A stretch of 64,000 nucleotides of DNA from a virus. Below are positions 696 through 48,357 of this stretch, one piece after another; positions within the stretch are counted from its first letter, which is position 1; each line of letters opens with the position of its first letter. The notes under the pieces were generated by a model. The model was not told where the DNA came from, made no database searches, and saw only the letters and a program-made list of their open reading frames with translations. The DNA lies in the IMG/VR virus record IMGVR_UViG_3300032240_000659, positions 62,001-126,000 of that record. One strand, written 5' to 3'. Position numbers and translations under genes: made by a program.

Positions 696-1523
696 ATGGC
701 CAATAACCCACTACAAAAGTATTTTCGTCAACCAAAAATTTTTATTAACTTGCCTAGTCACGGCATTTATAATAAAGAAGGAACACTCAACGGAGAGCCA
801 ACTAACATGCCAGTTTACGGTATGACTGGTATGGACGAAATTATTGTAAAGACTCCAGATGCATTGATGACCGGAGAAAGTACAGTTAAAGTTGTTGAAA
901 GTTGCTGTCCTACTGTTGCAGATGCTTGGGGTTTAAGTGTTTTAGATACTGATGTTATATTTGCAGCCATTAGAATTGCTACCTACGGAAACATATTAAG
1001 CCTGTCAAATACCTGCACAAATTGCAAGACAGACAGTGATTATGACGCAGATTTAAATAAAATCATTGATCATTTTGCAGCCTGTAAGTACGATAACACT
1101 ATTATAGTTGACAATTTAACAATCAAAACACAGCCGTTAACCTACAAACAAAGCACAGATTTCAGTTTAAAAAACTACGAATTACAACAAAAGTTAGCAC
1201 AAATACAGCAGATGGAGGATACTCCAGAACGTCAGCATAATATTAATTTACTATGGCAAGAACTTGCAGAAAGTCAAAAAAATGTATTTTCACTAACAAT
1301 TGAAAGTGTAGAAGTAGACGGAACAGTGGTTACTGAACGCGGTTATATCACTGAATGGTTAGCAAATTGCGATAAAAAGATTGTAGATGCTATCAAAGAA
1401 CACATTGAATCTAACAAACAACAATGGACTATGCCAAGATTTCCAGTTAAATGTGATCACTGCGGGCACGAAACAGAGTTACTACTTGATCTAGACCAAA
1501 GTAATTTTTTCGAATTAGCCTAA
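696..1523 (+). CDS. 26: gp26-like baseplate hub / tail assembly protein
   Basis: A 275-residue protein resembling the T4 gp26 baseplate family (T4_baseplate type). Two Cys pairs, CTNC near residue 107 and CDHC near 262, suggest a zinc-binding site. ATG 696 is chosen because GGAG precedes it by 8 bases and the late promoter at 659-667 lies just upstream; an in-frame ATG at 654 lies before that promoter. The gene ends in a run, T TTT TTC at 1505-1511, a canonical -1 slippery heptamer, just before the stop at 1521. In T4, gene 26 is followed by gene 51; here a gp51-like frame follows in -1. The family call rests on recognised sequence pattern, not a search. Confidence 0.75.
   Translation: MANNPLQKYFRQPKIFINLPSHGIYNKEGTLNGEPTNMPVYGMTGMDEIIVKTPDALMTGESTVKVVESCCPTVADAWGLSVLDTDVIFAAIRIATYGNILSLSNTCTNCKTDSDYDADLNKIIDHFAACKYDNTIIVDNLTIKTQPLTYKQSTDFSLKNYELQQKLAQIQQMEDTPERQHNINLLWQELAESQKNVFSLTIESVEVDGTVVTERGYITEWLANCDKKIVDAIKEHIESNKQQWTMPRFPVKCDHCGHETELLLDLDQSNFFELA
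1505..1511 (+). other. Candidate -1 ribosomal frameshift site (T TTT TTC)
   Basis: In the gp26-like frame the codons are TTT (1506-1508) and TTC (1509-1511), preceded by T at 1505. This is an X XXY YYZ heptamer on which both tRNAs could re-pair one base back. The -1 frame is open from 1505 to 1744. I see no obvious strong stem-loop just downstream. Confidence 0.6.
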
Positions 1524-1744
1524 TTAATACCCCGTTTGCTGAAATAGAAGCAAAGTTAGTTAGGCTAGACCAAGAAGTTAAGCAGTTTAAAACAGAATTG
1601 TTTAGACTTGCTTGGTACATGAGGGGAGGTGTTACTATCAATGACCTCCTATATACCTATAGTTTTGAAGATAGGCAAGCTATCTATACTGTTGTTACTG
1701 AAAATATGGAAACAACAAAAGAAACCCAACTACCGTTTATTTAA
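1505..1744 (+). CDS. 51: gp51-like extension in the -1 frame of the gp26-like gene
   Basis: The frame is open from just after a TAA at 1502-1504 to the stop at 1742-1744 (79 codons). It has no ATG with a ribosome site near its beginning; the first ATG is 38 codons in, within the recognisable sequence WYMRGG. The C-terminal part (WYMRGGVT, then a stretch ending ETTKETQLPF) resembles the small conserved protein after gp26 in marine T4-like phages, the gene 51 position in T4. It most likely appears only as a C-terminal extension of the gp26-like protein after a -1 slip at 1505-1511. The last 8 bases overlap the convergent gene ending at 1737. Confidence 0.65.
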   Translation, partial: FFRISLINTPFAEIEAKLVRLDQEVKQFKTELFRLAWYMRGGVTINDLLYTYSFEDRQAIYTVVTENMETTKETQLPFI

Positions 1745-2688: not shown

Positions 2689-3115
2689 GTTCTTCGCTTT
2701 CGCTCGAACTGTTTTCTTTCTTTTTAATGATTATTAACGCGAAGCGTTTAAGATATTATCTAGATTGTTCAGTCACACTTTGCCCAGACCGGGCAAAAAT
2801 GAACATTATCTGAGTTGCACAATATCACTTAGCGTTACAGCATTACAGAGGCGGTCATCCGGTACCTCGAGCTGTGTCTTTATATGACGGCGGCTTACTA
2901 ACATACGCTAACATGCTAGCAAACGTGGGCTATTAACCCTCTTTTTGCCTTTAACTTTCCTTTAAACAACCAAACCGCGGCAGCTTTGCGATCCTCGTCC
3001 TGTTAAGGATGGTGGTTGAGTACTCTTAGCAGCCAGAGATTCCGTCCCTGCGATCCGAGATCCAGGTGTAGGGCGCACGATATTTGCTTGCGCTTGCTTA
3101 TACTGCTTAAGGAGC
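2689..3115. other. Non-coding stretch with strong local structure
   Basis: About 430 bases with no convincing gene on either strand. It appears richer in GC than its surroundings. A nested hairpin lies at 2766-2805. I looked for tRNA arms (a GGTTCGANTCC-like T arm with a matching acceptor) on both strands and saw none. It lies between the GIY-YIG nuclease gene and the 304-residue gene. It may hold an unrecognised RNA, an origin or remnants of an inserted element. Confidence 0.4.
2766..2805. repeat. Nested inverted repeat (two-stem hairpin)
   Basis: The outer arms are TGTTCA (2766-2771) and TGAACA (2800-2805). The inner arms are TTGCCC (2780-2785) and GGGCAA (2791-2796) around an AGACC loop. 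No T run follows on either strand, so it is not a standard terminator. Confidence 0.55.
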
Positions 3116-42871: not shown

Positions 42872-43734
42872 AAAATGGTGCATTAATATTTGCCCAAAAT
42901 AATAAACTTATTGACTATACAAAACTAGCAGTATTTGCAGGTAACAGAGTAAAACAGTTTTTAGATATACCCGTTAGTATAGTAACAGATAATGTTAAGT
43001 GGCTAGAAGAAGTATATCCTACACACCCATTTGATACTATTATAGAAATTCCTTACTATGACGAATACTATCATAGAGAAATCCACACTCATAAAGAAAT
43101 ACATGACGGAGAGTTGTGGTCATCAAAAATGGAGTGGAAAAATATATCTAGGACACAAGTATATAATTTGTCTCCCTACGATAAGACGTTAGTAATAGAT
43201 AGTGATTATATTATTAGTTCTTCTGTTTTAAAAACAGCATTTAATATCGACGCTGATTTACAAATTTATAGTGATAGTTTTGATTTAGCAGATTGGAGAT
43301 CAACATCTGAATTTCATAGGGTAAATCCTTACTCGGTTAAATTTTATTGGGCAACTACTTTTGTTTTTCAAAAAAATTTAATTACTGAATCTTTTTTTAA
43401 TTTAATTGACTATATTAAATTAAATTGGTTTTATTTTAGAACTCTTTATAGTATACAATCTCCATTATTTAGAAACGATTTTGCATTTAGTATTGCTATA
43501 CACATTATGAATGGCAAAACTAATGGAGAATTTTCTAGTGATCTACCTGGCAGGATGTACTATTCATTAGACAAAGATTTTCTAGTATCTGCTAATAATG
43601 AAAAATTAAAATTTTTATTATCTAAAAAAGATTATCCTGGAGAATATACTTTAGCAAAAACTTCAGGACTTGATATTCATATTATGAATAAACAAAGTTT
43701 AATAAGAATGATAGACGGAGGTTTAGGTGTCTAA
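42868..43734 (+). CDS. GT-A type glycosyltransferase
   Basis: A 288-residue protein. It starts with a strand typical of nucleotide-sugar folds (GALIFAQNN). Near residue 110 a DSD motif (TLVIDSDYII) would bind metal and nucleotide sugar. A W/F/Y-rich C-terminal half follows, with IHIMNKQSLIRM near the end, where a histidine often completes the metal site. Donor and acceptor are unknown; phage DNA, virion protein or host surface sugar are possible. It is AT-rich and overlaps the next GT gene by 8 bases. Confidence 0.65.
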   Translation: MKNGALIFAQNNKLIDYTKLAVFAGNRVKQFLDIPVSIVTDNVKWLEEVYPTHPFDTIIEIPYYDEYYHREIHTHKEIHDGELWSSKMEWKNISRTQVYNLSPYDKTLVIDSDYIISSSVLKTAFNIDADLQIYSDSFDLADWRSTSEFHRVNPYSVKFYWATTFVFQKNLITESFFNLIDYIKLNWFYFRTLYSIQSPLFRNDFAFSIAIHIMNGKTNGEFSSDLPGRMYYSLDKDFLVSANNEKLKFLLSKKDYPGEYTLAKTSGLDIHIMNKQSLIRMIDGGLGV

Positions 43735-44563
43735 AGGATTTCTTGTCTTAGCACAAAATACAGAAACAGTTGATTACATTCAACAGGCATATGCATTAGC
43801 ATTGTCAATTAAAGCCAGTCAAAAAACTTATAAAAATATTTCATTGGTAACTAATGATCTAGTCCCAGAAGAATATCAAACTGTATTTGATAATATTATC
43901 CCGATACCCTGGGGAGATAGTACATCTGGTGTAGGCTACCGAGCTGAGAACAGATGGAAATTATATCACGCAACTCCATATGAAGAAACAATAGTTTTTG
44001 ATACTGATATGCTTCTATTAGAAGATATTACTGTATGGTGGGAATATTGTAGTAAATATAATCTGAAATATTGTTCAAGAATTACTAATTATAAATTAGA
44101 ACCAGTAATTGATACTGTGCATAGAAAAGCATTTATATCCAACCAACTTACTAGTCCATATTCTGCGCTACATTATTTTAAAAAATCACAAACTGCTTTA
44201 GAATTTTATAAAACATTAGAATTTGTTTGTAATAATTGGGAATGGTGTTATAGTAAGTTTGCTCCAAATGAATATCAACCCTGGTTAAGCATGGATTTAG
44301 TTGTTGCTATTGCCATAGAAATTACAGGATTTCACGAAGAGGCAATTGATATATGCAGTCCTTTAGAATTTGTCCATATGAAAGCACCGCTTCAAGGTTG
44401 GGCAAATGACTCTATACACTGGCAAGATAGTGTTTTTTATTTTTTAAATTCTAAAGGGGATTTAGTAGTTGGTAATATTAAACAATCAAAATTGTTTCAT
44501 TATGTAGAAAAAGATTTTTTAAACCAACGAATTATTGACGGATTAAAAAGGTTAATTGTATGA
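43727..44563 (+). CDS. GT-A type glycosyltransferase, second copy
   Basis: A 278-residue protein starting at GTG 43727, with GGAGG about 8 bases upstream inside the previous gene. It has FLVLAQNTE at the N-terminus, a DTD motif (TIVFDTDMLLLEDI) near residue 85, and FVHMKAPLQGW near 220, fitting the GT8-like order of nucleotide-binding strand, DxD and late histidine. It is about as long as its upstream neighbour and shares the general pattern, so the pair probably arose by duplication. The substrate is unknown. Confidence 0.68.
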   Translation: MSKGFLVLAQNTETVDYIQQAYALALSIKASQKTYKNISLVTNDLVPEEYQTVFDNIIPIPWGDSTSGVGYRAENRWKLYHATPYEETIVFDTDMLLLEDITVWWEYCSKYNLKYCSRITNYKLEPVIDTVHRKAFISNQLTSPYSALHYFKKSQTALEFYKTLEFVCNNWEWCYSKFAPNEYQPWLSMDLVVAIAIEITGFHEEAIDICSPLEFVHMKAPLQGWANDSIHWQDSVFYFLNSKGDLVVGNIKQSKLFHYVEKDFLNQRIIDGLKRLIV

Positions 44564-47418: not shown

Positions 47419-48040
47419 CTTTTGCACAAGTCTTTGCAACTTCTTGATGCTCTTTCTGTGTACCGTTAGCACTACGTAGTTCAATAAAGTGAACCCAACT
47501 ACGCAATGTACCATTCATATATAATCGACTTTCAATCAATCCTTCGGGTAGTACAGCACGAGCTTGTTCTTTTGCTATGCCGTTGGCAATAGCCCATTCG
47601 TATTCGCGTTTGGCCGCATAGATAACTCTTTGTTGGGCACGATACCATTCGTTTTGTAAAAGTGTATCATCAACTTCTACACTGTTCTGTCTATTTTTTT
47701 CGTCTTGTAATCTAGCTTCTCTGGTAACAAAGTTAAGATCCTTTGTTGGGTCAGCATAACGTTGGCTAAACTCTTGGAAGCTAAAACTTCTGTGTCGTAA
47801 GATTTGCCGTGCAATATCTCGTGTTGTCGTAATTTCCATGCAAGCTGACACCATTTCGAGTGGTGACCAGTGTTGGTGTTTGACGAGGTACTTGATGAGT
47901 TTATCACTTGTTTCTGTATTAAATTGATTGCTAGGGTTACTTACACGAGCACAATATGCAATAAGTTCTTGGGCATCATTAATACCTTGGTTAGCAAACT
48001 CTGCTGTTGGCTGTGAATAAGACACTAATTTAACATTCAT
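47366..48040 (-). CDS. thyX: Flavin-dependent thymidylate synthase
   Basis: A 224-residue ThyX that makes dTMP from dUMP using methylene-tetrahydrofolate, FAD and NADPH. The signature RHRX7S is at residues 82-92 (RHRSFSFQEFSQR). The C-terminal part has LPEGLIESRLYMNGTLRSW, where the catalytic Ser and an FAD/dUMP contact lie in this family. It supplies dTTP for the AT-rich phage DNA. The start overlaps the upstream gene by 4 bases; the 3' end overlaps the convergent glycosyltransferase. Confidence 0.95.
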   Translation of the reverse strand: MNVKLVSYSQPTAEFANQGINDAQELIAYCARVSNPSNQFNTETSDKLIKYLVKHQHWSPLEMVSACMEITTTRDIARQILRHRSFSFQEFSQRYADPTKDLNFVTREARLQDEKNRQNSVEVDDTLLQNEWYRAQQRVIYAAKREYEWAIANGIAKEQARAVLPEGLIESRLYMNGTLRSWVHFIELRSANGTQKEHQEVAKTCAKVIADVFPLMNNLAQTSP

Positions 48041-48357
48041 AGTTTTTTCTTTTTTAAGAATTTTTCGGTTGATCTTTTTATATCTTTTTTAACTTTAATT
48101 GTATCAAGTTTAAAATCAATATTGTCTATTTTTTCTTCGTAGCTTTTGCATAGCTCGGATAAGTTGTGTTCAAACTGATCCCAGCCTGCTTTTTTAACGC
48201 TAGATGTTATTTTTATTTCCCAAGTTTTACCGTCTTTAAAGTTAATAAGCACCGCGTTGAGATAGCTAAATGGTAATACATTTAGTTTTACCTCGCCAAA
48301 TACTTCAGGCCAATGTTCAACAGCATCTTTGGGAAGAGTGCTTCCCAAAGACGTCAC
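48037..48357 (-). CDS. Conserved protein of T4-like phages, unknown role
   Basis: A 106-residue protein. The N-terminus (GSTLPKDAVEHWPEVFGEVK, then VLINFKDGKTWEI) is a conserved pattern I know from marine T4-like phages. The last 25 residues are very basic (KKDIKRSTEKFLKKKK), which could contact DNA or RNA. It overlaps thyX and the next upstream gene by 4 bases on each side, indicating coupled translation. No function is assigned. Confidence 0.6.
   Translation of the reverse strand: MTSLGSTLPKDAVEHWPEVFGEVKLNVLPFSYLNAVLINFKDGKTWEIKITSSVKKAGWDQFEHNLSELCKSYEEKIDNIDFKLDTIKVKKDIKRSTEKFLKKKKL

Follow-up and report, generated by a model that had tools for sequence, protein, structure and literature searches.

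Xu, Hendrix and Duda reportedly described in 2004 a conserved -1 frameshift in the tail assembly chaperones (TACs) of long-tailed phages. This mechanism, best known from gpG/gpGT of lambda, was reviewed in 2016, and T4 was named there as an exception to it (PMC5009743). The locus investigated here belongs to a freshwater T4-like phage and raises the question of how a second reading frame, open across the end of a gp26-family gene, comes to be translated. The features that bear on this question are directly observed: a slippery site, the -1 frame itself, a downstream stem, their conservation among relatives, the homology to gp26 and gp51 of T4, and a tree of the shared domain.

The window, that is the whole stretch of 64,000 nucleotides that was analysed, was taken from an uncultured virus record of 128,134 bases, in which it spans positions 62001-126000. 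This record also encodes a gp23-type capsid protein (PF07068), a gp20-type portal (PF07230) and a prohead protease (PF03420), and the phage is therefore T4-like in the broad sense. A freshwater-2 RNA (RF02980, 75.9 bits) is found directly downstream of the gp23-type capsid gene of the same virus record, outside the window (L121 2252-2332 on the minus strand, approximately C1:54252-54332 of the record).

A chaperone gene and its second reading frame

The 0-frame gene occupies positions 696-1523 of the plus strand and encodes a short tail assembly chaperone (TAC-N) of the gp26 family, with 275 residues and the C-terminus ...QSNFFELA*. Its product matches PF12322 with 51.4 bits (E=1.4e-13), above the curated cut-off of 24.5, and phrog_150 (baseplate hub) with E=1e-14. 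A start at 654 was rejected, since the relatives align from residue 1 of the 696 start. The gene ends with the codons AAT TTT TTC GAA TTA GCC TAA, in which the heptamer T_TTT_TTC at 1505-1511 (plus strand) has the correct X_XXY_YYZ register for simultaneous -1 slippage, TTT being the P-site codon and TTC the A-site codon. The preliminary description of this DNA had placed the heptamer in the right frame, and both the 0-frame codons and this register confirm it. The 0-frame stop TAA (1521-1523, plus strand) is located 9 nt past the heptamer, so that the slippery-site feature of the lambda G/GT type is present.

The -1 frame is indeed open from 1505 to 1744, as had been stated, and comprises 79 codons. 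The extension proper (TAC-C), at 1511-1744 of the plus strand, comprises 77 codons after the slip followed by TAA, and the predicted junction of the frameshift product reads ...DLDQSNFF/RISLINTPFAEIEAK, or in short ...SNFFRISL across the shift. The claim that no ATG lies near the beginning of this frame was borne out: the earliest TTG is found 77 nt past the 0-frame stop and the earliest ATG 98 nt past it, within a conserved WYMRGG motif. Protein family scans with the -1 frame alone returned no Pfam match and no informative PHROG match. The 77-residue tail is mostly helical; AlphaFold2 models of the short form and of the extension, built as separate parts, have a pLDDT of 77 each, and a Foldseek search with these two models gave no PDB match (best E above 1).

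The divergent neighbour of the chaperone gene encodes 760 residues when completed from the record (L121 8352-10634). It belongs to no Pfam or PHROG family and has no match among 50,697 phage records. In phage RaK2, the divergent neighbour of the chaperone gene is annotated as tape-measure-like. The preliminary description had used the same term for the present neighbour, which is a putative tape-measure gene on the basis of its position only; the searches did not confirm this identity.

Some 1.2 kb past the chaperone gene, the window contains a Polynucleobacter-1 RNA (Rfam RF01718) at 2964-3098 of the minus strand, with 106 bits and an E-value of 6e-22. Among 19 related phage loci that were scanned, 11 carry this RNA downstream of the chaperone gene and again on the same strand (L001, L002, L005, L009, L010, L012, L017, L019, L022, L037 and L039). 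This recurrence suggests that Polynucleobacter-1 RNA, whose function is unknown, is encoded by this phage clade.

Conservation of the shift site and of a downstream stem

Related loci were collected by two scans of viral contigs and from cultured phage records. A readable gene end was available in 92 of them, and 90 of these, less than 97% identical to one another, constitute the distinct set. An in-frame T6 heptamer is present in 90 of the 90 distinct loci (T_TTT_TTC in 89, T_TTT_TTT in one), a count for which no p-value is given, the related loci not being independent. The preliminary description had proposed an alignment of related phages as a check, and the heptamer proved to be kept in the entire distinct set, the -1 frame being conserved as well. 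One apparent loss of the gene end, in L008, was rejected: read from its 3' end, this locus has a junction identical to that of L005, which places an indel upstream in the L008 contig.

The codon usage at the site is unusual. Outside the shift site, TTC is a rare codon of these genes (139 of 738 for Phe, 19%); at the site it is used in 90 cases out of 91. The codon before the heptamer always ends in T (AAT, AGT, GAT, CAT, ACT, TCT, GGT, TAT, GCT or CGT). Where the extension has 77 codons (71 loci), no variation occurs in the heptamer or in the next G, and the five bases that follow this G rank with the most variable ones (entropy 1.2-1.9 bits). The distance from the heptamer to the 0-frame stop ranges from 3 to 33 nt among the relatives and is mostly 9. 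The length of the -1 frame is kept at exactly 77 codons in 70 of the 90 loci, the mean identity of the extension in a 16-sequence alignment is 70%, and the third codon position is the one that varies most, a substitution pattern of the coding type. A conserved coding -1 overlap without a start of its own, as in lambda G/GT, is therefore present, with an ATG near the stop in some relatives.

A second conserved element, missed in the preliminary description, is a stem downstream of the heptamer. Its 5' arm lies at 1516-1528 (conserved core 1518-1527) and contains the 0-frame stop; it pairs with a 3' arm at 1555-1567, both on the plus strand and both supported by folding and by covariation. The stem begins 4-6 nt after the heptamer, and its conserved core 6 nt after it. 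A short-spaced stimulatory structure of this kind is common, though not universal, in the lambda G/GT type. The folding energy is -20.5 kcal/mol, with a z-score of -6.23 against dinucleotide shuffles. An inner hairpin at 1535-1554 (plus strand), in which 1535-1540 would pair with 1549-1554 and stack within the loop, is predicted by the single-sequence fold only and does not appear when 62 sequences are folded to a consensus.

Changes on both sides were observed in 7 of the 13 stem pairs among these 62 related sequences, which had been selected for pairing at 8 or more of the 10 core positions, so that any percentage of paired positions is biased upward. The compensatory exchanges (among them U-A to A-U and G-C, or A-U to G-C) nevertheless go beyond the effect of selection alone. 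The covariation score of the stem is 0.287, compared with 0.174 +/- 0.010 for shuffles, none of 500 being as high, and sliding the partner lowers it to 0.089 or less; RNAalifold recovers the same stem unaided. In the 90 unselected loci, the 60 nt past the heptamer fold with a mean z-score of -3.68 and 82% of them are below -2, as opposed to -0.35 to +0.13 at four control positions in the same loci. The sequence of the stem differs between clades. In a second clade (L099, L105 and L106), a different stem is found at nearly the same place and is also compensating, its arms being GGCTAACGAA/TTCGTTAGCC in L099 and L105 and GGCTAGCGAA/TTCGCTAGCC in L106. The stem is weak or absent in L084, L090, L091 and RaK2.

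Origin of the longer product

The main rival to frameshifting is translational coupling, in which the -1 frame would be a separate small gene restarted at or near the 0-frame stop, yielding a free C-terminal protein instead of a fusion. Several relatives offer suitable starts: an ATG overlaps the stop or lies just past it in L024, L025 and L027, ATG-TGA overlaps with the 0-frame stop would permit coupled initiation in Atu_ph07 and Phosso, an ATG is found at codon 6 of the -1 frame in 13 loci and within its first 25 codons in 25 of the 90, and some records annotate a separate CDS in this frame. However, 55 of the 90 loci, the window included, have no ATG, GTG or TTG in the first 25 extension codons, and the independent start with a ribosome site whose discovery in relatives would, according to the preliminary description, have spoken against a frameshift was looked for with little result, a Shine-Dalgarno-like site accompanying just one of the 35 early starts. 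The conserved residues FR..L moreover come before any possible start, and coupling leaves unexplained the fixed rare TTC, the fixed preceding T and the stem at its fixed short spacing. For want of starts in most loci, with Shine-Dalgarno sites nearly absent and the heptamer and stem unaccounted for, a coupled restart is disfavoured and is considered improbable.

Even less probable is transcriptional slippage, whereby the polymerase would produce from the T-run a mixed population of mRNAs, part of it in the other frame. The conserved element is indeed a T6 run, and hairpins can promote polymerase slippage (PMC5009743). Yet the length of the run is constant at six T, with C as the next base in 89 of the 90 loci, despite TTT being the commoner Phe codon, whereas the runs reported for such slippage are longer, Tn with n>8 (PMC3711429); this disfavours the explanation, and the codon register and the 4-6 nt spacer fit tandem tRNA slippage instead.

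Chance, an assembly error or a pseudogene, with neighbouring frames and a fortuitous T-run, is the least credible explanation, which the comparative data in practice refute: although similar arrangements occur in the window by a loose criterion, 90 distinct loci from many samples and from cultured phages conserve this one, with a coding-type substitution pattern and a covarying stem. The criterion, an in-frame slippery heptamer within the last 15 codons combined with a -1 extension 40 or more codons long, is satisfied by 3 of the 61 window ORFs of at least 100 aa. The arrangement alone is thus hardly beyond chance, and it is the comparative conservation that lifts it above. The two others, 43727-44563 (plus strand) and 48037-48357 (minus strand), were rejected as frameshift genes, being ordinary overlapping genes with an ATG. 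The latter ORF ends in TTA AAA AAG AAA AAA CTA TGA and overlaps the start codon ATG of a following gene, apparently one for a ThyX-type thymidylate synthase; the A_AAA_AAG heptamer of this ORF is probably coincidental.

Programmed -1 frameshifting, the reading advanced in the preliminary description on the model of lambda G/GT, is strongly supported by the universal slippery site, the conserved -1 frame, the lack of a start codon and the covarying hairpin. The locus very probably directs the synthesis of two proteins, TAC-N (275 aa) and TAC-NC (349 aa). Most ribosomes would stop at 1521-1523 and release TAC-N. The hairpin would delay a minority of them while TTT occupies the P site and TTC the A site; each tRNA-Phe would then shift back by one base to pair with TTT TTT, and reading would resume in the -1 frame at CGA (1511-1513) to give a smaller amount of TAC-NC. 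By analogy with lambda gpG/gpGT (PMC5009743), the role of the N part would be to coat the tape-measure protein, and that of the C part to recruit subunits of the tail tube. We infer the frameshifting event, its efficiency and this role in tail assembly from the sequence comparisons. No second PF12322 gene, nor any separate gp51-like copy, was found in the 128-kb record, which may be incomplete. The likeness to lambda has its limits, since the present protein belongs to a different family (PF12322, gp26-like, with CxxC motifs) and the window combines a T_TTT_TTC site with a strong hairpin whose arm holds the stop codon.

Relation to genes 26 and 51 of T4 and to other phages

In T4, gp26 has 208 residues and matches PF12322 over its whole length, and gp51 has 249 residues and matches the same family over residues 1-201, with about 45 extra residues at the C-terminus. 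The two proteins also match each other (hhalign, E 4e-17) and are hence paralogues. The extensions of phages Sf-FS3, IC12 and phiAS5, in which T_TTT_TTC ends the gp26-type gene ahead of a short -1 frame, match the C-terminus of T4-type gp51 (E 1e-14). For their frameshift product the match spans the length of gp51 (E 1e-22), and the frameshift product of the window's clade matches those of the three phages (E 7e-14). Taken by itself, the extension of the window's clade shows a weak match to the gp51 C-terminus (probability 60%, E 8e-5). On these similarities, the short form corresponds to gp26 and the whole predicted frameshift product to gp51. The -1 frame alone was rejected as an orthologue of T4 gp51, as it has no gp26-like domain and its weak match is to the gp51 C-terminus only. 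The notion of a fusion between gp26-like and gp51-like proteins, put forward in the preliminary description, has therefore to be abandoned: gp51 is itself a gp26 paralogue with an extension, and the -1 frame corresponds to this extension only.

The T4 solution consists of a short gene 26 and a long gene 51 fused in frame, on opposite strands, whereas a single frameshifting gene is found here. T4 gp26 ends in EFFELL*, compared with NFFELA* in the window, and its Phe-Phe pair is written TTC TTT, which is not slippery. A hidden frameshift in T4 gene 26 or 51 was rejected, the end of gene 26 having neither an open -1 frame nor a slippery site. In a maximum-likelihood tree of the shared domain, whose root is arbitrary and in which a few gp26 rows are long, gp26 and gp51 of T4 group together (support 99/96) beside the frameshifting Straboviridae phiAS5, Ci1 and VH7D (94/91), within wider frameshifting lineages. 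The likely order of events, as suggested by this tree, is frameshifting first and then a duplication in the T4 branch. T4 does possess two separate genes, as had been noted at the outset, but they do not appear to be the ancestral arrangement and would descend by duplication from a frameshifting ancestor. A single frameshifting gene with a T_TTT_TT(C/T/G) site was probably the ancestral strategy of the whole gp26/gp51 family, lost in T4 by duplication; one copy would have kept the short form with its site synonymously destroyed (TTC TTT), and the other would have fixed the extension in frame. If this is true, the frameshift strategy is conserved across jumbo phages, cyanophages and several Straboviridae.

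The breadth of the signal can be appreciated in cultured phages. T_TTT_TTC, or else T_TTT_TTT or T_TTT_TTG, is found in the jumbo phages Atu_ph07, Phosso, PA5oct, 121Q, RaK2, Vibrio 2.275, XacN1 and RAS14, in the Kyanoviridae Sf-FS3 and S-CAM1, in DLP6, phiN3 and the Rhizobium phages IC12 and Y68, and in the Straboviridae phiAS5, Ci1, VH7D and XZ1; the site is T_TTT_TTT in phiN3 and RAS14 and T_TTT_TTG in RHph_Y68. Sf-FS3, DLP6, phiN3 and RHph_Y68 have the same layout as this locus, a short -1 ORF behind a gp26-family gene whose end is T_TTT_TTC/T/G, but the annotation makes this ORF a gene of its own, 'gp51 baseplate hub assembly catalyst', the extension is somewhat shorter and lacks WYMRGG, and the stem sequence is different. 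Records of cultured jumbo phages present the -1 extension as a hypothetical protein of its own or as a truncated one, or leave it unannotated (NC_042013, L024; PV764938, L025; NC_071039, L026; KM507819, L027; NC_019526, L033; and others).

The preliminary description had taken loss of the heptamer with retention of both frames as evidence against a frameshift. Nowhere in the window's clade was such a case found, whereas it does occur in a distant branch of the Ackermannviridae type, where Vibrio phage K369, Salmonella phage PhiSH19 and Dickeya phage RC-2014 (L123, L126 and L127) keep both frames without a canonical heptamer. The long form is consequently not made by the heptamer everywhere, and these three phages may use coupled initiation (TAATG in RC-2014) or a weaker shift site.

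Part of this picture has precedents. Vladimirov, Gautam and Davidson (Virology 2022, 566:9-15) are reported to have identified the TAC genes of T4-like phages. According to PMC10885494, which cites them, a short gene accompanied by a longer, fused one takes the place of a frameshift in some T4-like phages, and PMC12846349, another citing paper, mentions poly-T shift signals in TAC-N genes of T4-like phages as well as a TAC -1 frameshift with a conserved poly-T motif, GTTTTT, in the myovirus Adele of Pseudomonas (Vandenendeviridae/Andersonviridae). Adele differs from the present locus in phage group and in motif, and is likened to it by mechanism. TACs of T4-like phages, the 26/51 solution and poly-T shift sites have thus been published before. 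Literature searches found no published report of the present shift signal in jumbo phages, and novelty may lie in the covariation of the hairpin and in how widely the T_TTT_TTC signal occurs, judged against papers citing Vladimirov 2022.

T4 has long been listed as an exception. A likely ancestral frameshift, with its shift site and its covarying stimulator, can be read directly in the present locus and its approximately 90 relatives. The annotation of many phages can be corrected in consequence, the small 'gp51' or 'hypothetical' ORFs that follow gp26 being the ends of a predicted frameshift product. Frameshifting, the duplication in T4 and the Ackermannviridae without a canonical heptamer form a natural series, which lets one ask how a fixed protein ratio survives a change of mechanism.
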